Below, piece by piece: positions 1 to 14,258 of a DNA stretch of 24,381 bases; the first letter of the stretch is position 1; each line of letters begins with the position of its first letter. The notes beneath the pieces were generated by a model. It was given only the letters and a program-made list of their open reading frames with translations, made no database searches and had not been told where the DNA came from. Position numbers and translations under genes: made by a program. Where the stretch lies: positions 12,947-37,327 of IMG/VR virus record IMGVR_UViG_3300030103_002562; one strand, 5' to 3'. Origin of the DNA: a virus.

Positions 1-107
1 GCCGTTATATCATCCTCAGCATGTGTGATTATAGGCTCCTTTAATACCTTAATCAGCTCGTCAATAGCCAGCTTGGCCGCCTGTAATATTTCTACCTTTT
101 TAGACAT
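1..107 (-). CDS. Hypothetical protein, 3' end outside window
   Basis: An open frame begins at the ATG at 107-105 and runs off the left edge, giving at least 35 residues starting MSKKVEILQAAKLAIDELIK. The visible part is predicted helical and charged, with no recognisable motif. Its start overlaps the last 16 bases of the upstream double-GroES-like gene, the same tight coupling used throughout this arm, which supports it as a real gene. Function unknown. Confidence 0.6.
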   Translation of the reverse strand, partial: MSKKVEILQAAKLAIDELIKVLKEPIITHAEDDIT

Positions 108-649
108 ATGTTCTTGTTGTACATCCTGTATAGTATCTCGTCTCCTATCCTAAACTCATACTCGCTGTCTGGAGTAAATGATATAATATCCCCATGATCC
201 ACGTAGTCTATATCGCTGTTCTTAAAAACCAACTCACCCCACAGTTGCTCTAAGTTTCCTAACTGAGTAAACATATGGTCTTCAGATTCTATAGGCCTTA
301 CAAAACAAAATGGAGACGGTGCATTCCACACCTCATCTCTTCTATACAAATAAACCTGACTGGGCTCCACTATGAATATGTCATCCATGACATGGTGCCA
401 GCTACTTTTTTGATTACCCTTCATGTCGTAGTAGTACCTAAACACGTTGTGGTGTACTATAACTATGTCTCCCTTTTGTATTGGTCCACTGTAGTATGTG
501 GGCCTTGATATAACCTCAGCAAATCTATTTGATACGGTGTGGTCCTCCTGTGACGTGCTTATGATAAACTCCTTGCCATCATAGCTACGTATGTTGTCAT
601 AACGCCTTCCATCGACAGGCTTTATAACGAAGCAGTATGGAGATTTCAT
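92..649 (-). CDS. Double GroES-like (tandem Cpn10) protein
   Basis: 185 aa that read as two Cpn10-like halves. Residues about 5-103 show the Cpn10 order: a VIKPV first strand, a possible loop around KEFIIST, FAEVISRP (compare RGEVLAVG), QKGDIVIV (compare VGDIVIF) and DDIFIVEPSQVYLY (compare EVLIMSESDILAI). Residues about 114-185 repeat it: FVRPIES, HGDIISF, then IGDEILYR. The last 33 residues align without gaps to the last 33 of the separate GroES in this window (8016-8273), with about 12 identities including the spaced GD-I-F and the IGDE block. Known tandem Cpn10 proteins include chloroplast Cpn20. A co-chaperonin for the phage GroEL is inferred; a diverged GroES fold with another role is possible. 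The start overlaps the upstream stop as TGATG. Confidence 0.5.
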   Translation of the reverse strand: MKSPYCFVIKPVDGRRYDNIRSYDGKEFIISTSQEDHTVSNRFAEVISRPTYYSGPIQKGDIVIVHHNVFRYYYDMKGNQKSSWHHVMDDIFIVEPSQVYLYRRDEVWNAPSPFCFVRPIESEDHMFTQLGNLEQLWGELVFKNSDIDYVDHGDIISFTPDSEYEFRIGDEILYRMYNKNICLKR

Positions 650-3246: not shown

Positions 3247-3504
3247 CTAATCTACAGGCATTGGCTGTTGCCATTTAGAATTATTCATAACAATCAAAGA
3301 CTGCCTATGAGACATAGTTTGGACAGGCACAACAGTACCATCTGCTATAAACGTAGGCTCTGTGTTCCACTTAATTAAAAATTGTAATTCATCTAAAGAC
3401 TTACGAATAGTATTTTCACCTGTCTCTCCAATCTGACTAAAGTCAATCAAAGGTAAATCAGTTATATTGATTATTGCATATGTTTCTGCTTGTCGTGTAC
3501 TCAT
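3247..3504 (-). CDS. LamG-cassette accessory protein, copy A (85 aa)
   Basis: Clear paralogue of 4706-4960. Both share YAII, the run DLPLIDFSQI, TIRKS, FLIK, DGTVVP or DGSVVP, and a terminal VD. Each copy follows a LamG protein gene by five bases, so the pair moves as a unit. Placement straight after a receptor-binding protein suggests a fibre chaperone or tip subunit, as with Tfa-type genes in other phages, but no homology to Tfa is seen; this is inference from position. Confidence 0.7.
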   Translation of the reverse strand: MSTRQAETYAIINITDLPLIDFSQIGETGENTIRKSLDELQFLIKWNTEPTFIADGTVVPVQTMSHRQSLIVMNNSKWQQPMPVD

Positions 3505-3509
3505 ATCTT

Positions 3510-4232
3510 TTATGTTGGTACGTCTGTGGTTCTGTTAGCTTCAAGCATATTTTTGCTTTCTGCCGTATTTGTTGTACTTCCTACACTTGTCATAGTCCAA
3601 ACATCATCCCCACTTGTAAAGGCGGCATTCTCTCCCATCCTAAACCAACCCACAGGAGAATAAGCGGACAGGTCTGTTGGTGTCCCACTATTGTATATGG
3701 CACTTATATTTGCACTTTGGTCGCTATCAAAAAATGCAACTTCGTCAATATTTCCGTCAGTAAATCCGTTTAAGAGTTTACTGCTGCCGATTCTTAGATT
3801 TTCAGTGTCGCTTGTTTGATGTCCTCCGCCATGATTAAGCGTAGCATCTTCAACACCATTGATATATATTTTATTGTCTGCTGCATTGTGAACACAAGCA
3901 ATGTGATACCAAGTTCCTGCACTCAATGCAGTAGTGCTGTTTAATCCCGTACTTAATGCTCTATAAGACCAAAAACGTATCTTGCCATCTGTTCGTACTC
4001 TAAATGAGTAACCGTTACCAAAACTTGCACTTGAAGAAGTGTCTATAATGTAGTAGTCGTTTCCTATTACATCAATCTTTACCCAAGCCATAATAGTAAA
4101 GTCCCCTGTAAATTCGTAATTACTTGCATCATCTACACTAAAGGCTTCATCATTACCATCAAAACTAAAGCTCTTTGTGTTTGAAAAAGAGGGAGTCTGT
4201 ACGTTTAATATAGAACGGTAGTTACTTGACAT
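3510..4232 (-). CDS. LamG/concanavalin-like receptor-binding protein, copy A
   Basis: 240 aa with a LamG_3-type jelly roll. Features include SFSFDGNDEAFSVDDA near residue 22, FTIMAWVKI, GTWYHIACVHN, KIYINGVEDA, and GNIDEVAFFDSDQSANISAI near the end of the fold. Such domains bind carbohydrates and are frequent in adhesins and phage appendages. After the fold comes a conserved tail (WFRMGENAAF ... VWTMTSVGS ... TTDVPT) shared with copy B at 4966-5691. The ATG at 4232 is one base from the preceding stop. A role in adsorption to the host surface is inferred. Confidence 0.75.
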   Translation of the reverse strand: MSSNYRSILNVQTPSFSNTKSFSFDGNDEAFSVDDASNYEFTGDFTIMAWVKIDVIGNDYYIIDTSSSASFGNGYSFRVRTDGKIRFWSYRALSTGLNSTTALSAGTWYHIACVHNAADNKIYINGVEDATLNHGGGHQTSDTENLRIGSSKLLNGFTDGNIDEVAFFDSDQSANISAIYNSGTPTDLSAYSPVGWFRMGENAAFTSGDDVWTMTSVGSTTNTAESKNMLEANRTTDVPT

Positions 4233-4643
4233 CTATGCAGGTTGTACAATCCAATACTCAACTCTTGTTCCTCCACACCACTCAGCATATATTACGTTAA
4301 GTGCCGATGTACTGTATGTACCCGACCCCATAAGAACCCATCCTGCAGGTACTGAAGGAGCTGAACCCTCTTGGTGGTACAACTTCTGAACGATTCCCAA
4401 CTGTGCGTTTGTCAAATCGTTTGTGATATTGCCTGTCCCAGTCGCTGCTGATGTGTTGTATATCTCACTCTCGGTGAATGATATTGCAACACCCGTCTTA
4501 GCGATAGCGGACTGTGACCCTCGCTTTAGATCGGCATATATATATATCGTTCTTGCACTGTTTGTCTGTGATGAACCTCTCTCTATTAAATCCTCTGAGG
4601 CTGATATTCCTACAAACTGTTCGTTACTTGGTACTGTTGGCAT
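4233..4643 (-). CDS. Probable structural protein preceding LamG copy A
   Basis: 136-aa Ser/Thr-rich, low-charge protein beginning MPTVPSNEQFVGISASEDLI. The second half has Gly/Trp turns (VPAGWVLMGSGTYST) and ends RVEYWIVQPA. Its stop abuts the LamG A start, just as the 88-aa protein abuts LamG B, which suggests it is the fibre or spike-base partner of LamG A. It is not visibly homologous to the 88-aa protein. It has its own TATATTTG box 21 bases upstream. Function inferred from position. Confidence 0.55.
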   Translation of the reverse strand: MPTVPSNEQFVGISASEDLIERGSSQTNSARTIYIYADLKRGSQSAIAKTGVAISFTESEIYNTSAATGTGNITNDLTNAQLGIVQKLYHQEGSAPSVPAGWVLMGSGTYSTSALNVIYAEWCGGTRVEYWIVQPA

Positions 4644-4664
4644 AATGTTTTATTTTTATATTTA

Positions 4665-4672
4665 CAAATATA
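4665..4672 (-). promoter_or_regulatory. Bacteroidota-type -7 box TATATTTG
   Basis: Exact TAnnTTTG match, 21 bases before the ATG at 4643, in the AT-rich gap between the two receptor cassettes. It would allow cassette A to be transcribed separately from cassette B. Confidence 0.5.
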
Positions 4673-4705
4673 AGATTATTTTTTATAAGCATTATTACTT
4701 ATACA

Positions 4706-4960
4706 TTAATCTACAGACATTGGTATTTGCCATTCGATTGTATTCATAAGAGTCAAAGCCTCACTATACGTTAAAACCTCTAAAGGCACAACGCTTCCAT
4801 CAATTATAAAACTTGGTTCTGAATTATATTTAATAAGAAACTTTAAACCATCATAAGACTTACGAATTGTAGTTTTGTCATTTTCTACAATTTGAGAAAA
4901 GTCAATTAATGGCAAGTCTGCCGTTTGAATTATTGCGTATATTCTATTATTGTTTTTCAT
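4706..4960 (-). CDS. LamG-cassette accessory protein, copy B (84 aa)
   Basis: Paralogue of 3247-3504 with the same core (DLPLIDFSQI, TIRKS, FLIKYN, DGSVVPLEVLTYSEALTLM, terminal VD). It begins five bases after LamG copy B. More than half of positions look identical between the copies on inspection. As for copy A, a fibre-tip or chaperone-like role is inferred only from linkage. Confidence 0.7.
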   Translation of the reverse strand: MKNNNRIYAIIQTADLPLIDFSQIVENDKTTIRKSYDGLKFLIKYNSEPSFIIDGSVVPLEVLTYSEALTLMNTIEWQIPMSVD

Positions 4961-4965
4961 TTTAT

Positions 4966-5691
4966 TTATGTTGGTACATCAGTAGTTACTTCGCTACCGT
5001 CCATATTTTGACTTGTTGCACTTCTTGTGTCGCTTCCAATACTGGTAGCAGTCCATATTTGAGTACCTGTATCAAAGGTGGCGTTTTCTCCCATTCTAAG
5101 ATTAATTAGAGGATTTAAACCTGTAATATCTGAAGGTATTCCGCTTCCATAAATAGTTGCAATGTTTGCAGTCTGATCTGTATTCCAAATGGCAAATTCA
5201 TCTAAAAAACCTTTAAAACCAAAAGAGGAGTTTACCACTCTACCAAGAGAATCTAAAATTACTGATTTTAATCCTAAATTTATAGCAGTTCCAAAAGCCT
5301 GACCGTTCAAATAAGGTTGCAAAGAATTAGACGAATCTTTTATTACTATTAAATGTCCCCATGTATCTCGTGGTATTGTTAATGTGCTGCTTGTAAAATC
5401 ATAAAATGTTCCAGATACTTTAATTCTTATTTGCGTATCAGAAACGAATTGAAAATAGTTTGCATTTGAAGTTTGTTGACCAATCAGAAACATTTGTGAG
5501 TTAACATAATCACCTGTGAATTTAAACCATACCGATACCGAAAATGGATCAGATATGTGAATTACCACTTCTGAATTAAATTTTAATAAATCATCAAGCC
5601 CATCAAATTTAAAAGAATTTGTGCTGTATGGTTCTGTGCCACCGTTTATCTCTCCCTTGATGGCATTCGATATGGATATTTGCATCGGCAT
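4966..5691 (-). CDS. LamG/concanavalin-like receptor-binding protein, copy B
   Basis: 241 aa, same layout as copy A: NSFKFDGLDDLLKF, FSVSVWFKF, DTWGHLIVIKDSSN, LQPYLNGQAFG and GFLDEFAIWNTDQTANIATI, then the conserved tail LRMGENATFDTG ... TATSIGS ... TTDVPT. The jelly-roll region is more diverged between the copies than the tail, as expected if the binding face is under diversifying selection while the tail has a shared partner. The ATG is one base from the stop of the 88-aa spike-base-like gene. Confidence 0.75.
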   Translation of the reverse strand: MPMQISISNAIKGEINGGTEPYSTNSFKFDGLDDLLKFNSEVVIHISDPFSVSVWFKFTGDYVNSQMFLIGQQTSNANYFQFVSDTQIRIKVSGTFYDFTSSTLTIPRDTWGHLIVIKDSSNSLQPYLNGQAFGTAINLGLKSVILDSLGRVVNSSFGFKGFLDEFAIWNTDQTANIATIYGSGIPSDITGLNPLINLRMGENATFDTGTQIWTATSIGSDTRSATSQNMDGSEVTTDVPT

Positions 5692-5964: not shown

Positions 5965-6225
5965 TTATTTTTTAGTACTTCTTCCGTCGGCACCATTTCG
6001 TGCTCTGTTCTTATACGGATGTTCAAGTACAAATTTACCATTTTTTTTCTTACTGACATCATCTCCACCCTTTCCGTCTATACCCCTACGCCTACGCTCC
6101 TTTGTATGCTCGGCACGGTACTTCTTTTGCTTCTCTGTCTTGTTCAGCTTTCTCTGATACCTTCGACGCTTCTCAGCCGCCTCAGGGTTCTCCTCGTAGT
6201 ACTTGGATGTCTTACTTTTTCCCAT
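5965..6225 (-). CDS. Highly basic conserved phage protein, 86 aa
   Basis: Starts MGKSKTSKYYEENPEAAEKR and is about 40% Lys/Arg, with RRRYQRKLNKTEKQKKYRAE forming a charged helix and a Gly/Asp/Lys-rich second half ending GADGRSTKK. Proteins with the MGKSKTSKYY start and a KxNK core are common in environmental tailed phages, without known function. A nucleic-acid-binding or internal virion role is plausible from composition. It is last in a run of seven small, mostly basic genes. Confidence 0.7.
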   Translation of the reverse strand: MGKSKTSKYYEENPEAAEKRRRYQRKLNKTEKQKKYRAEHTKERRRRGIDGKGGDDVSKKKNGKFVLEHPYKNRARNGADGRSTKK

Positions 6226-6382
6226 ACGGAAATAATTCGTTTAGTTTGTCCTTACGCTTGTCACATCCGCACGGCTGATTGAATGCCTTGGCTCCAGCCT
6301 TTACGATCTGTTGAATACCCGTAAGCTTAGTCACAGCCTCAACTGTGTCTCCCAAACCTTTATGTTTCTTTATCTTAATCAT
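6212..6382 (-). CDS. Small conserved phage protein with CGCDKRKDKLN motif, 56 aa
   Basis: Starts MIKIKKHKGLGDTVEAVTKL, then an alpha-helical middle and a CGCDKRKDKLNELFPY motif at about residues 38-53. The combination of GLGDT, a TGI helix and CGCDxRxxxLNxLFPY is familiar from Bacteroidota phages and prophages, where it has no assigned function. The two cysteines three residues apart could bind metal. The ATG at 6382 and 14-base overlap with the next gene fit the operon. Confidence 0.7.
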   Translation of the reverse strand: MIKIKKHKGLGDTVEAVTKLTGIQQIVKAGAKAFNQPCGCDKRKDKLNELFPYGKK

Positions 6383-6385
6383 GTC

Positions 6386-6685
6386 TTAATACTTTCCTTT
6401 TCTACCTTTAGGCGAACTCTTGGTAGAACCGCCTTTACCAGCCCATAGGTTCTTACAGGCCCAGTATCTTGCGGTAAGCTTAGATGTGGCCGTACCACAC
6501 TTATGTCGAGCCTTGAAAGATTTTCTAGCTGCAGATGAGTAGTTGTGACCGTAACCCTTCGCACCGAAGTGTATGATCTTCTCCTTGCCACCCTCGCATC
6601 CCTTGACCATCTTCTTCTTACCTGGCCTTGTAGACGATCTAGGCTTGTTGCAAGGCATACTACTCTTGTCTACCCTCTTTGCCAT
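6386..6685 (-). CDS. Basic phage protein with RHKC ... ARYWACKNLW motif, 99 aa
   Basis: Contains an N-terminal MPCNKPRSSTRPGKKK segment, then KEKIIHFGAKGYG, RKSFKARHKC and KLTARYWACKNLW. The order PCNKPR, IxHFG, FxARHxC, KxxARYWxCK is a recurring small phage protein type in marine phages, with related strings in some large DNA viruses; the function is unknown. Cys and His residues near the end could coordinate metal. The start forms TAATG with the preceding stop. Net charge is strongly positive. Confidence 0.7.
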   Translation of the reverse strand: MAKRVDKSSMPCNKPRSSTRPGKKKMVKGCEGGKEKIIHFGAKGYGHNYSSAARKSFKARHKCGTATSKLTARYWACKNLWAGKGGSTKSSPKGRKGKY

Positions 6686-6831
6686 TATCCCTTTTTCCTT
6701 AGCTTTTTAAAGTCAGATCCCTCAATCTTATTAGGATCTCCAGACTGCTTTGCTATATATTGCTGTCTCTTTGTCAATACCTTTATGGAGCTATTCTTCA
6801 TAGGCATTGAGTCCATCTCTTTCTTGTTCAT
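6685..6831 (-). CDS. Small basic hypothetical protein, 48 aa
   Basis: Begins MNKKEMDSMPMKNSSIKVLT and ends FKKLRKKG. It is Met/Lys-rich and probably helical. The stop shares a base with the following start (TAATG) and the ATG lies nine bases after the upstream gene. No family recognised; coding status rests on perfect operon packing. Confidence 0.6.
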   Translation of the reverse strand: MNKKEMDSMPMKNSSIKVLTKRQQYIAKQSGDPNKIEGSDFKKLRKKG

Positions 6832-6840
6832 AACTATTAT

Positions 6841-7023
6841 TTAGTAGCTTGTACTTTGCTTTTCCTGACCGTATCCTGGATTGTCTTTTTTTACAATTTT
6901 AGCTCCTTTGTTTCTAGGATCTCTCATAAACTGATCTAACTTAACCTTTCCAACTGCGTTGTAAGGAAATTTTTTAATCATCATCTTACCCGTGTCAGGA
7001 CATTTGTGTTTTACTGTAGGCAT
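6841..7023 (-). CDS. Small basic hypothetical protein, 60 aa
   Basis: Begins MPTVKHKCPDTGKMMIKKFP. HKCPDTGK near the N-terminus resembles half of a zinc knuckle, but no second Cys pair follows, so metal binding is unsupported. Basic overall, with NAVGKVKLDQFMRDPRNKG in the centre. Three bases separate its start from the upstream stop. Function unknown. Confidence 0.65.
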   Translation of the reverse strand: MPTVKHKCPDTGKMMIKKFPYNAVGKVKLDQFMRDPRNKGAKIVKKDNPGYGQEKQSTSY

Positions 7024-7026
7024 AAC

Positions 7027-7152
7027 TTATTTTTTTTTAGTTGTTTTGTTCATAGACTTAAGCATCCTGTCAATCTTAGCTGCCTGTCCCTTATGCATAG
7101 CAGAAGCCTTCTTTAACTCTGCAGAAATAGTCTTTAGTTTTTTTGCATCCAT
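7027..7152 (-). CDS. Lys-rich 41-aa helical protein
   Basis: Begins MDAKKLKTISAELKKASAMH and ends in a lysine run. A single amphipathic helix is likely over the first 34 residues. It sits exactly in the gap between the 115-aa and 60-aa genes, spaced six and three bases, which is the main support for it. Function unknown. Confidence 0.6.
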   Translation of the reverse strand: MDAKKLKTISAELKKASAMHKGQAAKIDRMLKSMNKTTKKK

Positions 7153-7158
7153 ATCTAA

Positions 7159-7506
7159 TTATTTTCTTTTTAATGATTTTACACGTCTACCCATTCCTAC
7201 CCTAGACTTCTCTGACTTCTTTCTAGCTAGCTCAGACTTAGACATCTCACCCTTAGTCTTTGGAGTCTTGGAAGACACCCTCTTTGTTGGCCTGCAGTAC
7301 TCGTTTTTATTACCTGCACCGCATGCCTTACCAGTACGTGTATCTACCCATTTCTCCTTCTCCCACCTCTTGAGGCTTGCACCCTTGGAAGACTTGGTAA
7401 CCTTACCCTTACCCTTCCTACACTTGGCTATAGCCTGTGAGGCTCTGGCCGATGGGAAGACCTTGTACTGTCTCTTTACTTTCTTGTAGCAGGCGTCTTT
7501 TGGCAT
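7159..7506 (-). CDS. Basic DUF5872-like protein, 115 aa
   Basis: The N-terminal module DACYKKVKRQYKVFPSARAS followed by QAIAKCRK matches the pattern I associate with DUF5872, seen in phages and large DNA viruses. The second module has SLKRWEKEKWVDTRTGKACG, then EYCRPTKRVSSKTP and a Lys/Arg tail. The paired Cys/Trp features suggest two small folds. First gene of the basic-protein operon, 24 bases after a TATATTTG box. Function unknown; an abundant DNA-contacting or virion protein is a guess from charge. The family name needs a profile search. Confidence 0.7.
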   Translation of the reverse strand: MPKDACYKKVKRQYKVFPSARASQAIAKCRKGKGKVTKSSKGASLKRWEKEKWVDTRTGKACGAGNKNEYCRPTKRVSSKTPKTKGEMSKSELARKKSEKSRVGMGRRVKSLKRK

Positions 7507-7543: not shown

Positions 7544-8050
7544 ATGATTCCAAAGGTTAAGAAGAGGATCTCAAAGAGGGAGGACAAAATATTTTTCACA
7601 AGGGAAGCGAAGTACGATTTCATGAAGCACTGGAGCGTTATCAGGAGATGGGCCGTAGTAAACTACGAGCTCAAGTCGTCTGCAGATTTAGACATGCTCA
7701 TGTTTCTCTACTCCGAACACCTATTCACTAGAAAGCAATTCGACAGGTATGCCAACCACATGTCATGGGACAGGCTCAGGTTTAACAGACTGCTAAGAGA
7801 CGGGTTTATAAGGAAGTTTAGGGAAAAGAGATGGGGAGAGGCACTTTTGTATGAGGTATCACGAAAGGGAAAGAAGATGATCGCAACGATCTACAGGAAG
7901 TTGCTTGGATTTGAAGAGCTGCCAGAGTCGCCCAGGAGGAATAAGATATTTAAGAAAGAGGCACCCTTCTCTCACAAGATACTATCGATTGCGGTGAAGG
8001 ATGCCAATAGAGACCTTAAAGAACGCAGGCAACGTCCTTCTCTTGAATGA
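7544..8050 (+). CDS. Winged-helix (MarR-like) protein, candidate regulator
   Basis: 168 aa. Residues about 42-125 look like a winged helix-turn-helix: DLDMLMFLYSEHLFTRKQF (helices 1-2), RLRFNRLLRDGFIRKF (recognition helix), ALLYEVSRKGKKMI (wing strand and next helix). The order 'leucine-rich helix, LxxxGFI, YxVSxKGK' is typical of MarR-like proteins. The flanks are strongly basic. It is the only plus-strand gene in the left arm, with its own promoter opposite the basic-protein operon, and its last 35 bases overlap the end of groES head-on. A transcriptional role is inferred; a DNA-binding structural protein is possible. Confidence 0.6.
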   Translation: MIPKVKKRISKREDKIFFTREAKYDFMKHWSVIRRWAVVNYELKSSADLDMLMFLYSEHLFTRKQFDRYANHMSWDRLRFNRLLRDGFIRKFREKRWGEALLYEVSRKGKKMIATIYRKLLGFEELPESPRRNKIFKKEAPFSHKILSIAVKDANRDLKERRQRPSLE

Positions 8051-8273
8051 TAGTAAGCCTCTCGTCTCCTATCAAGACGTCGTATGCCGACACCTTGTCA
8101 AATATAATGGTGTCTCCACCCTTGATTCCGAGTACATTGTACCCCACATCCCTGACATTACCCCTCTGGTAACGCATCTCGTTTGAGTCTTCGTCGCTCA
8201 TTATCAGTCCACTTGAGCTGGTCTTCTTCTCGTAAATCCTCTCAAGCATTATAAACTTATTTAGTATCTCCAT
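8016..8273 (-). CDS. groES: GroES co-chaperonin (phage)
   Basis: 85 aa, close to the usual 95-97. It shows a first strand FIMLERIYEK, a mobile loop TSSSGLIMSDED (compare the GGIVL loop that docks on GroEL) at about residues 18-29, RGNVRDVG, then GGDTIIFDK, and the ending LTIIQEKDVACVL, equivalent to the EVLIMSESDILAI end. It caps the GroEL ring and closes the folding chamber. It lies downstream of groEL and overlaps it by 17 bases, the reverse of the usual bacterial groES-groEL order. Its 3' end overlaps the convergent winged-helix gene. Confidence 0.85.
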   Translation of the reverse strand: MEILNKFIMLERIYEKKTSSSGLIMSDEDSNEMRYQRGNVRDVGYNVLGIKGGDTIIFDKVSAYDVLIGDERLTIIQEKDVACVL

Positions 8274-9816
8274 TGTCTCTGACGTTTGTTATTATTGAAC
8301 TCGTGCTCATTATCGTTGTGGCAACAGACACAGCATTCTCTAACGCATTCCTTGTCACATTAGCTGGGTCTATGATCCCCATCTTTATCATATCACCCAC
8401 CTTTTCATTCTTTACGTCGTACCCCTCTCCATCCTGTTTTAATTCGATCCTGGTTTTAATTGGATTTACGCCAGCATTCTCAAGTATTTGTACGAATGGA
8501 GCGAACAGTGCCTGAGTTACGATCTCAGATGCAATGGTGCCATCCTTAACAATATCCATGCAGTTCAGTAGTGCGATACCACCGCCAGGAAGTATTCCCC
8601 CCTCGATAGCTGCCTGTACCGCACATACAGCGTCATCGATACGGTCACGCTTCTCCTTCTGCTCTATATCTGTCAGTGCACCGACATGTATCACACCGAT
8701 ACCTCCAGATAGGTTTGCGATACGCTCCTGAAGAAAGTCTCTCTCCTCCTTCTGCTCTGTGCCCCATACAACCTTTTTTAGTACCTCGACATGGTCGGTT
8801 ATCGTATCACCCATCTCCTCTGCATGCATGATGACCGTCATGTCCTTACGTACGACTATCTTTGCAGCACGACCTAGGTCTCCCAGCTGTATCACGGACA
8901 GGTCGTCCCCAGTGTCGTCAGAGAAGTACGTACCACCAAGTGCCACGGCTAAATCTTCTAGGAGCTCCTTCTGCCTGTATCCAAAGTTTGGAGGGAGTAT
9001 GTTACACACCTTAATCTTACCCTGCAATGCATTGACATTCAGAGTGTTAAGTACGTTCTGACTCAGCTCTCCTATGATCAGCAGAGACTTACCCTGTGCC
9101 ACGATAGGCTTCAGTATGTTCTCTATATTGGCCAGGTTACTGATCTCGTGGTCCGTGATTAATACATACGGGTTCTCCATCACACACTCCTGCTTCTTCT
9201 GGTCAGTGACAAAATACTTTGAGGTATAACCACGCTCGATACGCATCCCCTTTATGATGTCTACATAGGTATCAGAGTTCATACTGTTCTCAACCGTCAC
9301 CATCTCTACCTCCTCAAACGCACCAGCGATCATCTCACCGACCTTCTTGTCGTTGTTGGCGGATATGGTTGCCACATCTATCAGACGCCTACCGCTTACC
9401 TTCTTACTCTTCTTCTTTAGGTGTGCATCTATACGCTCGGCTATCGAGTTTATCTCCCTGATTACCTCTGTAACATTCGTATCATCCTCGATGTATCTCT
9501 CTGCTGCATCTATGATCGCCTCGGCCAGGACGATAGATGTCGTCGTGCCGTCGCCAGCCATGGTGGCAGTCTTTTCTGCAGCCTGACGCATCATCATCAC
9601 CGCCAGGTTCTCAGTCGGGTCATATAGGTTGATCGACTTCGCTACCGTCACACCGTCCTTAGTGACCGTTATGCCGCCTACATGGTTCTCGGACTCTATA
9701 AGGACTGTCCGTCCCCTAGCCCCTAGTGTGCTCTTTACAGCTCCTGCAATTTTTTTGATTCCAGCCCTTAGTTTCTCTTGGCCGCTGTCGCCAAGGTGTA
9801 CCTGTTTTACTATCAT
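8257..9816 (-). CDS. groEL: GroEL-type group I chaperonin (phage)
   Basis: 519 aa (about 548 in E. coli). Nucleotide-site motifs: TLGARG at 30-35 (Pro33 of the usual TLGPKG is Ala), VTKDGVTVAK at 51-60, AGDGTTTSIVLA with Asp89 equivalent to E. coli Asp87, IDDAV with Asp395 equivalent to the hydrolytic Asp398, PGGGIAL at 410-416 and GIIDP near 480. The apical domain keeps NLANIENILKPIVAQGKSLL and a helix with VLNTLNVNAL where GroES and substrates bind. The C-terminus ends NVRDNGDTK without a Gly-Gly-Met tail. All ATPase residues appear intact. It probably folds phage virion proteins; a TATATTTG box and an upstream terminator isolate it as its own unit with groES. Confidence 0.95.
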   Translation of the reverse strand: MIVKQVHLGDSGQEKLRAGIKKIAGAVKSTLGARGRTVLIESENHVGGITVTKDGVTVAKSINLYDPTENLAVMMMRQAAEKTATMAGDGTTTSIVLAEAIIDAAERYIEDDTNVTEVIREINSIAERIDAHLKKKSKKVSGRRLIDVATISANNDKKVGEMIAGAFEEVEMVTVENSMNSDTYVDIIKGMRIERGYTSKYFVTDQKKQECVMENPYVLITDHEISNLANIENILKPIVAQGKSLLIIGELSQNVLNTLNVNALQGKIKVCNILPPNFGYRQKELLEDLAVALGGTYFSDDTGDDLSVIQLGDLGRAAKIVVRKDMTVIMHAEEMGDTITDHVEVLKKVVWGTEQKEERDFLQERIANLSGGIGVIHVGALTDIEQKEKRDRIDDAVCAVQAAIEGGILPGGGIALLNCMDIVKDGTIASEIVTQALFAPFVQILENAGVNPIKTRIELKQDGEGYDVKNEKVGDMIKMGIIDPANVTRNALENAVSVATTIMSTSSIITNVRDNGDTK

Positions 9817-10584: not shown

Positions 10585-11442
10585 TTATTGATTAAATTTT
10601 AAAGTCCCATCACCATCTATATAAAGACCCCTGTGACTGTCATCTATAGATATACCCATAAGACTATATCGCCCTGAGGTCTCATTAACATCTCGGTACA
10701 CATGAACAGGACCATATACCTCCTGCTGACCATCGATGTCTGACTGTACAATCCTATAGTAAACATAACCGCCATGCATAAACCTGTCTAGGTGACTGTA
10801 GCTTATCTCACTGTTACTAAATCCAGCTCCAGGTAACTCGGCCAAAAGATTCCAATCAATACCATCGCAAGACCTGTACAGATCGAATGTCATTGAGTTA
10901 AACTCAGAAGCGGTGGACCACTCGATAATATTACCGTCTTCCCTTACCGATGCCTTAAAGTCAAGCATCTCAACAGGTAGAGGTGAGGCATCCCTTATCT
11001 GAAGGAACTCGACATCGGAATACATTCCAGATACAGACCCAGTACCACCAATCGTGTTCAAGACAAAGGCAAGTGCCTGGGTGGTGTTAGGTACAACTAC
11101 CGTGTAGTATCCAGTAAGGTTCGACAGGTCGTAGTAGAACCATCCCCCGTCATAGAAGTATAAACCGAAGACATCCCCTGGCCTAATGACACTCTTCTGG
11201 TACCAAAGCAACTCAACCTCTGAGTATGTGCTGAAGTCATAGCTAGGACTCTGGAAGATGTAGAACTCATTGTCAAGGTAGTCGCCAGTGATGTTGTAGG
11301 TAAGACTACCTCCCAGAGATCCAGTGTTTCCGCCAGGACTTGTCCATTCGCCAGGACCGTCAAAGCTATCGAAAGGCTCAAATATCTGAGCGTTTGATGT
11401 TACGGTAATTAGTGCAATCGTGAGTTTTAATAGTAGCTTCAT
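10585..11442 (-). CDS. Secreted host-like protein with jelly-roll and T9SS-like C-terminal part
   Basis: 285 aa from the ATG at 11442 (a TTG three codons upstream is also in frame). Signal peptide: MKLLLKLTIALITVTSNAQ, a flavobacterial-type start with SNAQ before cleavage. Residues about 20-145 form a beta-sandwich of the kind seen in secreted MAM-like or concanavalin-like proteins (SPGGNTGSLGGSLTYNITGD; VELLWYQKSV; YYTVVVPNTTQALAF). Residues about 150-245 match a segment widespread in Bacteroidota secreted proteins: LPVEMLDFKASV, IIEWSTASEFN, FDLYRSCDGIDW, YYRIVQSDIDGQ. The end, YSLMGISIDDS then GLYIDGDGTLKF, resembles a short type IX secretion sorting tail. It is first in the leftward arm. 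Probably host-derived cargo; role unknown. Confidence 0.65.
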   Translation of the reverse strand: MKLLLKLTIALITVTSNAQIFEPFDSFDGPGEWTSPGGNTGSLGGSLTYNITGDYLDNEFYIFQSPSYDFSTYSEVELLWYQKSVIRPGDVFGLYFYDGGWFYYDLSNLTGYYTVVVPNTTQALAFVLNTIGGTGSVSGMYSDVEFLQIRDASPLPVEMLDFKASVREDGNIIEWSTASEFNSMTFDLYRSCDGIDWNLLAELPGAGFSNSEISYSHLDRFMHGGYVYYRIVQSDIDGQQEVYGPVHVYRDVNETSGRYSLMGISIDDSHRGLYIDGDGTLKFNQ

Positions 11443-11448
11443 ATTTAA

Positions 11449-11456
11449 CAAATGTA
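11449..11456 (-). promoter_or_regulatory. -7 box TACATTTG
   Basis: Exact TAnnTTTG match on the minus strand ending only six bases before the ATG at 11442. With the usual start about five bases downstream of the box, the transcript would be leaderless or nearly so. Confidence 0.45.
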
Positions 11457-11538: not shown

Positions 11539-11550
11539 CCCCCACCCCCC
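11539..11550. other. C-tract CCCCCACCCCCC in switch region
   Basis: Two cytosine runs of five and six bases separated by one A; on the minus strand it is a G-tract. It is conspicuous in an AT-rich, non-coding stretch. Preceded at 11511-11523 by a short GAC/ACG microsatellite. No function can be assigned. Confidence 0.6.
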
Positions 11551-11560
11551 TAAAACAAAT

Positions 11561-11589
11561 ACAAATCGAAGATTTGTTCTGAATTTTTT
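11561..11589. terminator. Perfect hairpin with T-run, possible terminator
   Basis: ACAAATC (11561-11567), three-base loop GAA, GATTTGT (11571-11577), then six T residues at 11584-11589 on the plus strand. The stem is AT-rich and weak. On the minus strand it is followed by ATTTGTTTT. It could be a bidirectional weak terminator or an operator dyad between the arms. Confidence 0.35.
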
Positions 11590-11597
11590 GCCGTTTT

Positions 11598-11676
11598 ATC
11601 TACATATCTGCCTGTCTATCAGCCTATTACGTTTGACGTAGCTACCTAACCATCTACATATCTGTCTGACTATCAG
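11598..11676. repeat. 25-bp direct repeat, two copies
   Basis: ATCTACATATCTG followed by CCTGTCTATCAG-like sequence occurs at 11598-11622 and 11652-11676, with 23 of 25 bases identical and a 54-bp period (about five helical turns). Lies in the non-coding switch region, suggesting paired protein-binding sites. Confidence 0.65.
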
Positions 11677-11735
11677 TAGCTTGTATAAAACCTCATACCA
11701 ACCAACCTATCAATAGGTCTGACTGACTGAAATTT

Positions 11736-11802
11736 ATTATGTATGCATAGCAATTAATTGGTCAGTCGATTTGTTATGCGTACATATATTATGTATGCAT
11801 AG
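11736..11802. repeat. 15-bp direct repeat ATTATGTATGCATAG, two copies
   Basis: Perfect copies at 11736-11750 and 11788-11802, period 52 bp. Each contains the palindrome ATGCAT, and a related TTATGCGTACAT lies between them. The spacing is close to that of the neighbouring 25-bp repeat pair. Confidence 0.65.
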
Positions 11803-11839
11803 GAAATTATAAATCCCGATATACCGTTTGACATTATCA

Positions 11840-11867
11840 TTGACTTACATACATAAAGACATAGAAT
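11840..11867 (+). promoter_or_regulatory. Sigma70-like promoter candidate for rightward arm
   Basis: TTGACT (11840-11845), a 16-base spacer, then TAGAAT (11862-11867): five of six matches to each E. coli-type hexamer. A perfect TTGACA also lies at 11828-11833. No clear TAnnTTTG box was found on the plus strand of the switch region, so early transcription may use a different promoter class. Sequence match only. Confidence 0.4.
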
Positions 11868-11885
11868 AAAACCTGCCCTAAAAAA

Positions 11886-11957
11886 ATGAACACAAAAACA
11901 AAAATAGTACTTGTTTATATGAAATCAATTGCAAGTGCTTGTTTTACAGTAAGTTAG
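11886..11957 (+). CDS. Possible 23-aa leader peptide
   Basis: An open frame beginning MNTKTKIVLVYMKSIASACF in an A-rich start context, about 12 bases beyond the predicted start of the sigma70-like promoter. The length is near chance expectation; the only support is position. It could be a leader peptide ahead of the structured RNA region, or nothing. Confidence 0.2.
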   Translation: MNTKTKIVLVYMKSIASACFTVS

Positions 11958-11986
11958 GTACTGATTCAATGACACACAAACCCGTC

Positions 11987-12034
11987 AACTACGTAGCACC
12001 CACTAAGTATAACTACGTAGATAGAACTAAGTAG
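11987..12034. repeat. AACTACGTAG operator-like repeats
   Basis: Perfect copies at 11987-11996 and 12011-12020, a one-mismatch copy (AACTAAGTAG) at 12025-12034, and a weaker CACTAAGTAT at 12001-12010. The core CTACGTAG is an eight-base palindrome, so each copy can bind a dimer. They lie downstream of the rightward promoter candidate, as expected for a repressor site. Confidence 0.55.
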
Positions 12035-12069
12035 TAACACGTAATCTTTAAACCTTATAAAAAAAAATT

Positions 12070-12144
12070 ATGACATATCGATTAAGTATTCCGAGATTTG
12101 ATATCAGAAGCAAACGAGCTACTACATACAAATTGAAATATTGA
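12070..12144 (+). CDS. Possible basic 24-aa peptide
   Basis: Open frame beginning MTYRLSIPRFDIRSKRATTY after an A8-TT leader resembling start contexts in the right arm. Very basic. Its IPRFDI is faintly like LRFDI in the 38-aa gene at 12446-12562, which may be chance. Coding status uncertain. Confidence 0.25.
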   Translation: MTYRLSIPRFDIRSKRATTYKLKY

Positions 12145-12161
12145 TAAGACAATAAACATAC

Positions 12162-12421
12162 CTTGGTTGGTCAGACGAGGGCTTGCAGAGATTAGTAAAG
12201 CGTAACTACGGGAGTACGTAAGGCAAGGGCAACATTACACTACTCAGGTGGGTGTTGTTAAAACCATATCAAATATGATATAGGGATAAAGGAGGGATGG
12301 CAGTTTCACGTGGCTATCAAAAGACTTGTGTAGGTTCGATTCCTACTATATAAGTGAGGTGCAAGTCAAACATTAGGTGCAGTTAGAATGACTAATTAAT
12401 GAGAGCAATACTCACTGCACC
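12162..12421 (+). ncRNA. Structured RNA candidate with tRNA T-arm-like hairpin
   Basis: Consecutive hairpins. CTTGC/GCAAG (12182-12186 with 12223-12227) encloses a bulged stem 12201-12218. CAACA/TGTTG pairs 12230-12234 with 12253-12257. CCATATC/GATATAGG with one bulge spans 12264-12284. GATGGC/GCTATC spans 12296-12318. A perfect T-arm GTAGG-TTCGATT-CCTAC is at 12330-12346, with a consensus seven-base loop. GGTGCAGT/ACTGCACC pairs 12376-12383 with 12414-12421. AGTGAG at 12353-12358 could instead pair with CTCACT at 12411-12416, giving two exclusive folds. No matching acceptor stem was found for a complete tRNA. A phage non-coding RNA or leader switch is inferred. Confidence 0.4.
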
Positions 12422-12445
12422 ACTAACCAATAAAAAACAAATATC

Positions 12446-12562
12446 ATGAGAAAAAGAAAAATAATAGGAAGAACGCCATGCCTACGTTTTGATATCGTAG
12501 CGATATTCATCAACGGAATTGAGGTATCTGGAAGCAGAAGAAGAATCAGAGTATTTAACTAA
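12446..12562 (+). CDS. Basic 38-aa peptide, first gene of rightward arm
   Basis: Begins MRKRKIIGRTPCLRFDIVAI and ends SGSRRRIRVFN. The start is preceded by AAAAAACAAATATC, matching the leader used before many genes of this arm, which supports it. Beta-rich and strongly basic. Function unknown. Confidence 0.6.
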   Translation: MRKRKIIGRTPCLRFDIVAIFINGIEVSGSRRRIRVFN

Positions 12563-12573
12563 AAAAAACAGAT

Positions 12574-13991: not shown

Positions 13992-14258
13992 ATGAACGAA
14001 GCAATAGGAATTTTATTAATTATATCAATGGGAGTAAATGTTTACTTCTTTTTGACAATAGGAATTTATTTAACAGAACTTAGTGAAAAACTTGATGAAG
14101 TAGGCAACCAACTTACAAGCACTGCTGAAGATGTTGATAATCAATTTAAGATCAGTAAAGAAGACAAAGATGCCTTTGCCATAAATTCGCATGAAAAAGC
14201 AATTAGTGTAATCAAAGAAGGTAAGTTTAAGTTCAGATTTTTAAACAAAAACAAATAG
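13992..14258 (+). CDS. Membrane-anchored helical protein, 88 aa
   Basis: N-terminal hydrophobic span at about residues 4-27 (AIGILLIISMGVNVYFFLTI), then an acidic coiled-coil-like helix (LTELSEKLDEVGNQL) and a basic tail ending FRFLNKNK. One-pass membrane protein with the soluble part probably cytoplasmic. Its stop TAG is part of the leader of the next gene. Unknown function. Confidence 0.65.
   Translation: MNEAIGILLIISMGVNVYFFLTIGIYLTELSEKLDEVGNQLTSTAEDVDNQFKISKEDKDAFAINSHEKAISVIKEGKFKFRFLNKNK

Follow-up and report, generated by a model that had tools for sequence, protein, structure and literature searches.

Genes and features of the locus

We analysed a stretch of 24,381 nucleotides (the window), which is part of a 37,327-base viral record. 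Close to its first base lies a gene whose product, judged by profiles and a predicted structure, is two Cpn10 domains in tandem, one of them shown mainly by prediction. The features relevant to this protein are as follows.

1..108, minus strand: start of a small open reading frame (ORF), followed by another short ORF and then, outside the window, by the terminase large subunit
92..649, minus strand: gene for the double (tandem) Cpn10 protein, from the ORF list (ATG start, 185 aa); the protein is a relative of phrog_13932, 'co-chaperonin GroES'
95..334, minus strand: C-terminal Cpn10 domain, residues 106-185 (hhalign 93.0-97.2%; structural match 4pkn_W)
239..292, minus strand: C-domain mobile-loop region, shortened to 18 aa at residues 120-137 (alignment of 99 members; pLDDT)
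335..649, minus strand: N-terminal Cpn10-like domain, residues 1-105 (VHHN motif, with H66 H67 N68; structural alignment, hhalign)
521..616, minus strand: mobile-loop region of the N domain, residues 12-43 (28-32 residues in 99/99 members; lower pLDDT)
8016..8273, minus strand: single-domain phage GroES, 85 aa (Pfam Cpn10 4.1e-10, 40 bits, cut-off 21.1)
8257..9816, minus strand: phage GroEL, 519 aa (Pfam Cpn60_TCP1 9.9e-62; phrog_5725 4.1e-127)
G000:C1:10573-12792, minus strand, outside the window: terminase large subunit (phrog_6681 2.5e-178)

All three parts of the set proposed in a preliminary description of this DNA, a phage GroEL, a single GroES and a double GroES, were thus found in the window by profile. 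The GroEL frame, which passes the Pfam cut-off, overlaps the start of GroES by 17 nt, and the double gene lies 7-9 kb from this pair on the same strand. Compared with 11 bacterial GroELs from MAGs, the phage GroEL retains the apical-helix stretches VLNTLNVN, LLEDLA and YTSKYF, together with GDGTTT; helices H and I of GroEL are described as the GroES site in a review of co-chaperonins (PMC5780408).

Several other features of the window were noted in passing. A 168-aa ORF (7544-8050, plus strand; phrog_17028, with a weak Replic_Relax match) is convergent with GroES and overlaps its 3′ end by 35 nt, and in MW202828 a 'repressor protein' gene lies in a similar convergent overlap with the cpn10 of that phage. 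A two-gene cassette is present twice at 3247-5691 (minus strand), where each LamG-like gene (3510-4232 and 4966-5691; Pfam Laminin_G_3) is followed by a gene for a protein of 84-85 aa (3247-3504 and 4706-4960), these two being similar by eye. The series of small, very basic proteins encoded at 5965-7506 (minus strand), of which 7159-7506 matches DUF5872 (6e-14), might, as a guess, be DNA-condensing virion proteins. A 288-aa protein (10585-11451, minus strand) has a signal-peptide-like start by eye and no Pfam match at E≤0.1, and about 1 kb with no listed ORFs of at least 50 aa (11546-12573), perhaps a control region, lies between the leftward and rightward arms.

In a Pfam profile search the double protein gave nothing over cut-off and no Cpn10 match; in PHROGs, its residues 1-181 match phrog_13932 (7.6e-16). 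It is therefore already known as a family, annotated "chaperonin cpn10" or "GroES", whose carriers include Cellulophaga phages phi38:1, phi18:3 and Calle, the Flavobacterium elemo phages and Maribacter phage Panino. The GenBank records that we examined for phrog_13932 phages do not state its double-domain nature, and several records call two quite different proteins of one phage 'GroES', an annotation corrected here. A literature search, made over ranked matches and covering few subscription papers, found no tandem, double or Cpn20-like phage co-chaperonin, which leaves such an absence unproven. The preliminary description had known of no described phage Cpn20-like protein; this has to be narrowed, since the protein is annotated as cpn10 or GroES in GenBank and PHROGs and as a Pervagoviridae core gene, and it is the double nature that appeared in no text found. 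New here are the gene order relative to terminase, the co-occurrence with a single GroES and the difference in length of the second mobile loop. Neither the Pfam and PHROGs searches with the double protein nor its listed structure matches showed a small-terminase sequence or fold; a reading as small terminase or structural protein, backed by no family and no listed structure match, was set aside.

'Chaperonin cpn10' is reported as a Pervagoviridae core gene used for phylogeny (PMC8776804), and from the Calle annotation we infer that this gene is the double one. Other reports mention GroEL in 36 environmental genomes of the phi38:1 group (PMC5332604), co-chaperonin GroES in viral genomic islands (PMC6487183), and GroEL and GroES homologues in Panino (PMC11590407); in the stretch of the Panino record examined here, the sole gene labelled GroES is the double one. 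The phi38:1 genome encodes the double protein, and its GroEL is reported to give methylated peptides by mass spectrometry in infected cells and free-virion samples (PMC13288928).

A tblastn search with the window protein matched 77 of 50,697 phage records, at 27-41% identity (68 Flavobacterium (elemo), 7 Cellulophaga, Maribacter phage Panino and MW202828). With the phi18:3 protein as query 10 records were matched, 8 of them Cellulophaga phages with a full-length match. The phi18:3 type belongs to the same family as the window protein by PHROGs and not by tblastn, the other named phages by both. Viral contigs yielded 283 and at least 591 stretches encoding relatives, of which the best 80 from each were fetched, and a viral scan with the Panino protein as query found nothing. 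Our alignment of 86 sequences (A2) comprises the window protein and 85 of 131 hand-listed loci from 181 fetched, near-identical ones having been dropped by script. One scan of bacterial and archaeal genome contigs gave 19 loci encoding relatives; all 19 are in records titled MAG, and a host or prophage origin of the double protein was rejected on this ground.

A profile of the double protein (33 members), which detected 4/4 positive controls, matched 0/5 other GroEL-bearing phages (Crassvirales cr108_1, Flavobacterium immuto, Bacteroides SJC03, MW202497 and Vibrio K447), a small sample of the 238 phage records matching the window GroEL. A 196-aa ORF before the cr108_1 terminase was dropped as a relative, having no profile match. 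Two genes before the terminase of this GroEL-bearing Crassvirales phage there is also a short ORF (L264, record 14073-14255) with a Cpn10 match below cut-off (E 0.004, 13.9 bits).

Sequence and predicted structure of the two halves

By sequence comparison, the C-terminal half is detectably related to single-domain GroES, including that of the same phage. In a single BLASTP comparison it shares with the phage GroES a gap-free block of 33 residues with 12 identities (E 4e-4). The block spans residues 150-182 of 185 in the double protein and 50-82 of 85 in GroES; the gap-free alignment claimed earlier is thus there, although it lies near the ends of the two proteins and is not literally their last 33 residues. 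The local alignment score of the C half with the phage GroES (51) was reached in 0/2000 shuffles, and that of the whole double protein in 1/2000.

The preliminary description had called for profile tests of each half separately. With hhalign, the C half of the family gave the expected Cpn10 match (93-97% overall), at 93.0-96.4% with Cpn10 (20 shuffles each, at most 3.9%) and 95.0-97.2% with a joint Cpn10 profile (100 shuffles, at most 1.2%). Pfam Cpn10 was matched at E≤1 by 41/86 family members (best 2.2e-6), and its curated cut-off was passed by phi18:3 (32.6 bits), Calle_1 (28.0) and L165 (26.4), as well as in the record of L152. Wherever the position of a Pfam Cpn10 match in a relative is shown, it falls in the C half.

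Pairwise, the N half of the window protein aligns with the phage GroES at chance level, 509/2000 shuffles reaching the score. The earlier claim that two halves are readable from sequence alone therefore holds for the C half and not for the N half. The N-half profile gave 27.5-30.7% with all Cpn10 (shuffles at most 10.9% and 8.9%) and 27.9-58.8% with phage GroES (shuffles, run for the first value only, at most 4.2%). With bacterial GroES alone it gave 3.2-3.5%, no better than shuffles (3.0%); tested separately, this half thus shows a modest signal with phage or all Cpn10 and none with bacterial Cpn10. At E<0.01, a Cpn10 profile was matched by 13/99 N halves and by 0/1980 shuffled sequences. These 13 are nine of the elemo type, that of phi18:3 and three others; in the elemo-type and phi18:3 N halves the match covers most of the first 75 positions of the profile. 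Residues 14-64 of the elemo protein match the single-GroES family phrog_3188 (whole-protein E 3e-4). Direct comparison of the N-half and C-half profiles was weak (14.9% and 4.6%), and we therefore do not claim that the two halves arose by duplication within the phage. Among 12 aligned members, H66-H67-N68, S162-E163 and E165 do not vary, and H66-H67-N68 and E163 remain invariant when 86 members are compared; HHN is absent in phi18:3.

An AlphaFold model of the window protein (86 sequences; mean pLDDT 81.7, pTM 0.75) has a predicted Cpn10 β-barrel fold in both halves. The pLDDT is below 50 at residues 124-133, in the C loop, and lower also in the N-domain mobile loop. With VIA-align, where a Z under 8 may represent a common arrangement, residues 1-104 of the model matched Thermus Cpn10 (1wnr_G; Z 8.7, rmsd 2.9 over 73) and T4 gp31 (2cgt_O; Z 7.9, rmsd 1.6 over 62), and residues 107-185 matched GroES (4pkn_W; Z 8.1, rmsd 3.4 over 79). 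The phi18:3 double protein is 17% identical to that of the window; its model (pLDDT 74.9, pTM 0.73; low at residues 16-38 and 72-78) again shows the two-domain fold, and in each model one of the halves has gp31 as a match. The structure prediction that had been proposed as a check thus points to a Cpn10 fold in both halves of both proteins. The description of the 185-aa protein as two Cpn10-like halves is borne out by the C-half profile, with the relatives and AlphaFold supporting the N half.

Could the N half instead be a dehydrogenase-type GroES-like barrel, or some other β domain, so that the protein would be a single Cpn10 with an extra domain? Its profile support is modest with phage or all Cpn10 (27.5-58.8%) and nil with bacterial Cpn10, and GroES-like domains of dehydrogenases do appear among the VIA-align matches, at Z 6.2 and below, a range in which Z can mean a common arrangement. 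Cpn10 chains on residues 1-104, however, score above every listed dehydrogenase (Z 8.7, 8.4, 7.9 and 7.9), and the nine elemo-type N halves and that of phi18:3 match the Cpn10 profile. We consider a non-Cpn10 N half very improbable.

To our knowledge, few tandem Cpn10 structures exist. The top solved match of both models in VIA-align is one of them, the ClpP-bound chain 7ekq_R, named 'Cpn20 co-chaperonin subunit' (Chlamydomonas plastids; 7ekq_P is 'Chaperonin 11'), which supports the Cpn20-like architecture suggested earlier. It aligned with the window model at Z 11.1 (rmsd 4.7, 159 aligned residues over 1..185) and with the phi18:3 model at Z 10.3 (rmsd 4.5 over 161). In Foldseek it ranked first for the window model (E 4.4e-5) and fourth for that of phi18:3 (E 1.0e-3), after human Hsp10 chains that cover one domain. 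Together with the report that a Chlamydomonas Cpn11/20/23 heterotetramer sits on the Clp core (PMC8889267), this match raises the idea that the double protein plugs some host ring that is not GroEL, such as ClpP, and so restrains host proteolysis. The match may, however, reflect shared architecture only, and a GroEL is encoded in most of the larger records (18/23); we give such a plug very little credence.

Cpn20 of plastids and apicoplasts (Chlamydomonas Cpn20/Cpn23, Arabidopsis, P. falciparum) has, like the double protein, two head-to-tail Cpn10-like domains (~20 kDa). In plants and algae it coexists with a single-domain co-chaperonin, as the phage protein does, and the review reporting this terms the two-domain co-chaperonin 'chloroplast-specific' (PMC5780408). 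The Cpn20 of P. falciparum is reported to complement E. coli depleted of GroES (PMC3542282). The double protein differs in being phage-encoded, in the position of its gene before terminase, and in its second loop, short in 95/99 members. In a profile search, bacterial GroES chains (2e-4) and Cpn11 (0.0036) scored better than Cpn20 itself (7ekq_R, 0.25); because of this low similarity to Cpn20, the phage domain fusion is probably independent of the plastid one.

Mobile loops, gene order and partners

In the window protein the mobile-loop region comprises 32 residues in the N half and 18 in the C half, compared with 26 in the phage GroES, in agreement with the preliminary description, which saw no obvious mobile loop in the second half. 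The C-domain region has 16-20 residues in 95/99 members, that of the window included, which makes it about 8 residues shorter than the full-length region retained in the phi18:3 and Calle types (25-27 residues in phi18:3, L163, L165 and L166). The N-loop sequence GKEFIIS of the window protein aligns with GLILN, SGLVLN and ESGLEL of relatives. Mobile-loop-like sequences are present in both halves of the phi18:3 protein (KTESGLEL and KPSLIYIPED), and the C-loop region contains GSIIVPNS in L165 and DNGLRVI in Calle; the window protein, with EFIIS in its N loop, has a gap opposite the C loops of these three relatives. Searching the C loop for a hydrophobic triplet by regular expression did not separate the members (35/99 matched, window included), and the argument made here is one of loop lengths. 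Plastid Cpn20 has a mobile loop in each of its two domains, a pattern from which the window protein, with 32 and 18 residues, departs. Given its short loop in 95/99 members, the C half may not bind GroEL.

At the position of the GroES roof hairpin the two halves have short segments, of 8-10 and 7-13 residues; in T4 gp31 the roof is missing. T4 gp31 is a phage lid of Cpn10 fold, as the double protein would be, and in structural alignment it matches the N half and its free form the C half. It is, however, one domain in a 107-residue chain used with the host GroEL, whereas the double protein has two domains and often occurs with a phage GroEL and GroES. The single-domain phage GroES (phrog_3188) has one domain with a full mobile loop and adjoins groEL in the window.

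Downstream of the terminase, also outside the window, lies the portal protein (phrog_6547, 6.4e-149). We fetched 205 loci, many of them close relatives, and 199 with at least 900 bases downstream were testable for gene order. A terminase large-subunit frame follows the double gene in 199/199, its start lying between -55 and 1093 bases from where the double frame ends, and the double gene likewise precedes terminase in annotated isolates. Since the gene lies directly before terminase and portal, it is probably expressed along with the late genes for packaging and head. The phi18:3 record carries MS/MS notes on structural proteins and none on gp096, its double protein, which is therefore probably not a major virion part. 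The terminase large subunit also varies in length: it has 876-879 aa in elemo, Panino and Calle (L082, L084, L085), where it directly abuts the double gene. In the window genome and in phi18:3 (L258, L256), where short ORFs lie between, it has 739 and 775 aa, respectively; perhaps an extra domain is fused in one case and separate in the other.

This gene order is what one would expect if a Cpn10-fold protein had been co-opted to assist packaging or head assembly and no longer acted on GroEL. The second loop, short in all but four members, agrees with such a role, and the residues invariant among 12 members (H66-H67-N68, S162-E163 and E165) suggest a specific surface. However, the N half still has loop-like sequence, as do the two halves of the phi18:3 protein, which has not retained the HHN motif, and the missing MS/MS note on gp096 speaks against a major virion part. 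We regard a packaging accessory as quite unlikely.

We then counted the partners of the double protein, other weak Cpn10 matches in these searches being the double protein itself and many of the records being fragments. GroEL accompanies it in 15/21 records and in 18/27 viral records (24/33 with six MAGs), and in 0/5 of the phi18:3 type; a separate single GroES does so in 15/21, 19/27 and 5/5, respectively. Among distinct records of at least 55 kb, the single GroES is present in 23/23 and GroEL in 18/23. Each genome was counted once here (Calle_1 and phi18:3 had come twice), and MAG contigs were left out because the search there spans the whole MAG. The five without GroEL are G051 (72,812 bases), phi18:3 (complete, circular), phi13:2, phi19:3 and phi46:3; the last four are isolates of the phi18:3 type with double proteins 99% identical among them, and encode the single and the double GroES while lacking GroEL. 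In G043 (54,425 bases), G001 (50,357), G034 (41 kb) and G032 (40 kb), which may be fragments, the searches detected no GroEL and no separate single GroES. The counts suggest that the double protein is tied more strictly to the single GroES than to GroEL, the records being related and not independent, and its co-occurrence with the single GroES may be common descent.

Within the same set, two profile searches detected no GroEL in G051 (72.8 kb, Calle-like), the record of L165, which encodes both co-chaperonins; GroEL may have been lost here inside a GroEL-bearing lineage. Three single-GroES-like ORFs (L219, L224 and L234), long or divergent, were dropped before the profile tests.

A proposed lid for the folding cage

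The preliminary description saw the double protein as an alternative or asymmetric lid. The two loops are indeed unequal. The constant partner, however, is the single GroES (23/23) and not GroEL (18/23), which makes a mixed lid no less likely than an alternative one. An alternative lid would consist of the double protein alone, three or four subunits with six or eight domains, and would replace the single GroES late, giving a cage suited to a large late protein, as with T4 gp31. Homo-oligomers of plastid and apicoplast Cpn20 are reported to work with heptameric chaperonins, and a linked six- or eight-domain GroES with GroEL (PMC5780408). The location of the double gene with terminase and portal, away from groEL-groES, would fit as well, as would the appearance of gp31 among the matches of one half in each model. 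Such a lid would leave the single GroES of all 23 larger records unexplained, even where GroEL is missing, and we think it unlikely.

We somewhat favour, on the analysis as a whole, a two-domain, Cpn20-type co-chaperonin that helps to close a GroEL-type cage, likeliest in a mixed ring with the single GroES. The double protein would help to close the folding cage for late phage proteins, the timing, GroEL binding and clients being part of this proposal. Three double proteins and one single phage GroES would make a ring of seven domains, which would cap the phage GroEL or, in relatives that have none, the host GroEL. This composition leads among the possible assemblies because the single GroES is constant and because there is a plastid precedent for seven-domain hetero-oligomers, but it is put forward tentatively. 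In that precedent, CrCPN20 and/or CrCPN23 are reported to form hetero-oligomers of seven GroES-like domains with a single-domain subunit (PMC5780408), and Arabidopsis Cpn10(1) is reported to be functional only together with Cpn20 (PMC4242682).

In the lineage of the window, with a full-length mobile loop in the first domain only, the mixed ring would hold GroEL by about four loops instead of seven, and its roof would be short. The fuller proposal, a mixed lid of three double and one single protein that arose independently of plastids, binds asymmetrically by about four of seven loops and is reserved for folding of the terminase, portal or capsid proteins encoded downstream, is more doubtful than the ring composition itself.

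With a second, apparently independent, two-domain co-chaperonin in viruses, one could test by comparison what favours domain fusion in a lid of seven-fold symmetry. The double protein is present in isolated phages, phi18:3 without GroEL and phi38:1 and elemo with it, and small systems are therefore at hand for testing the symmetry (6, 7 or 8 domains on a 7-fold ring) and how few loops suffice to hold a lid. Some of these phages infect marine Flavobacteria, and bring to them an architecture otherwise known from plastids, in a protein that probably helps to cap a protein-folding cage during assembly of the virus particle.
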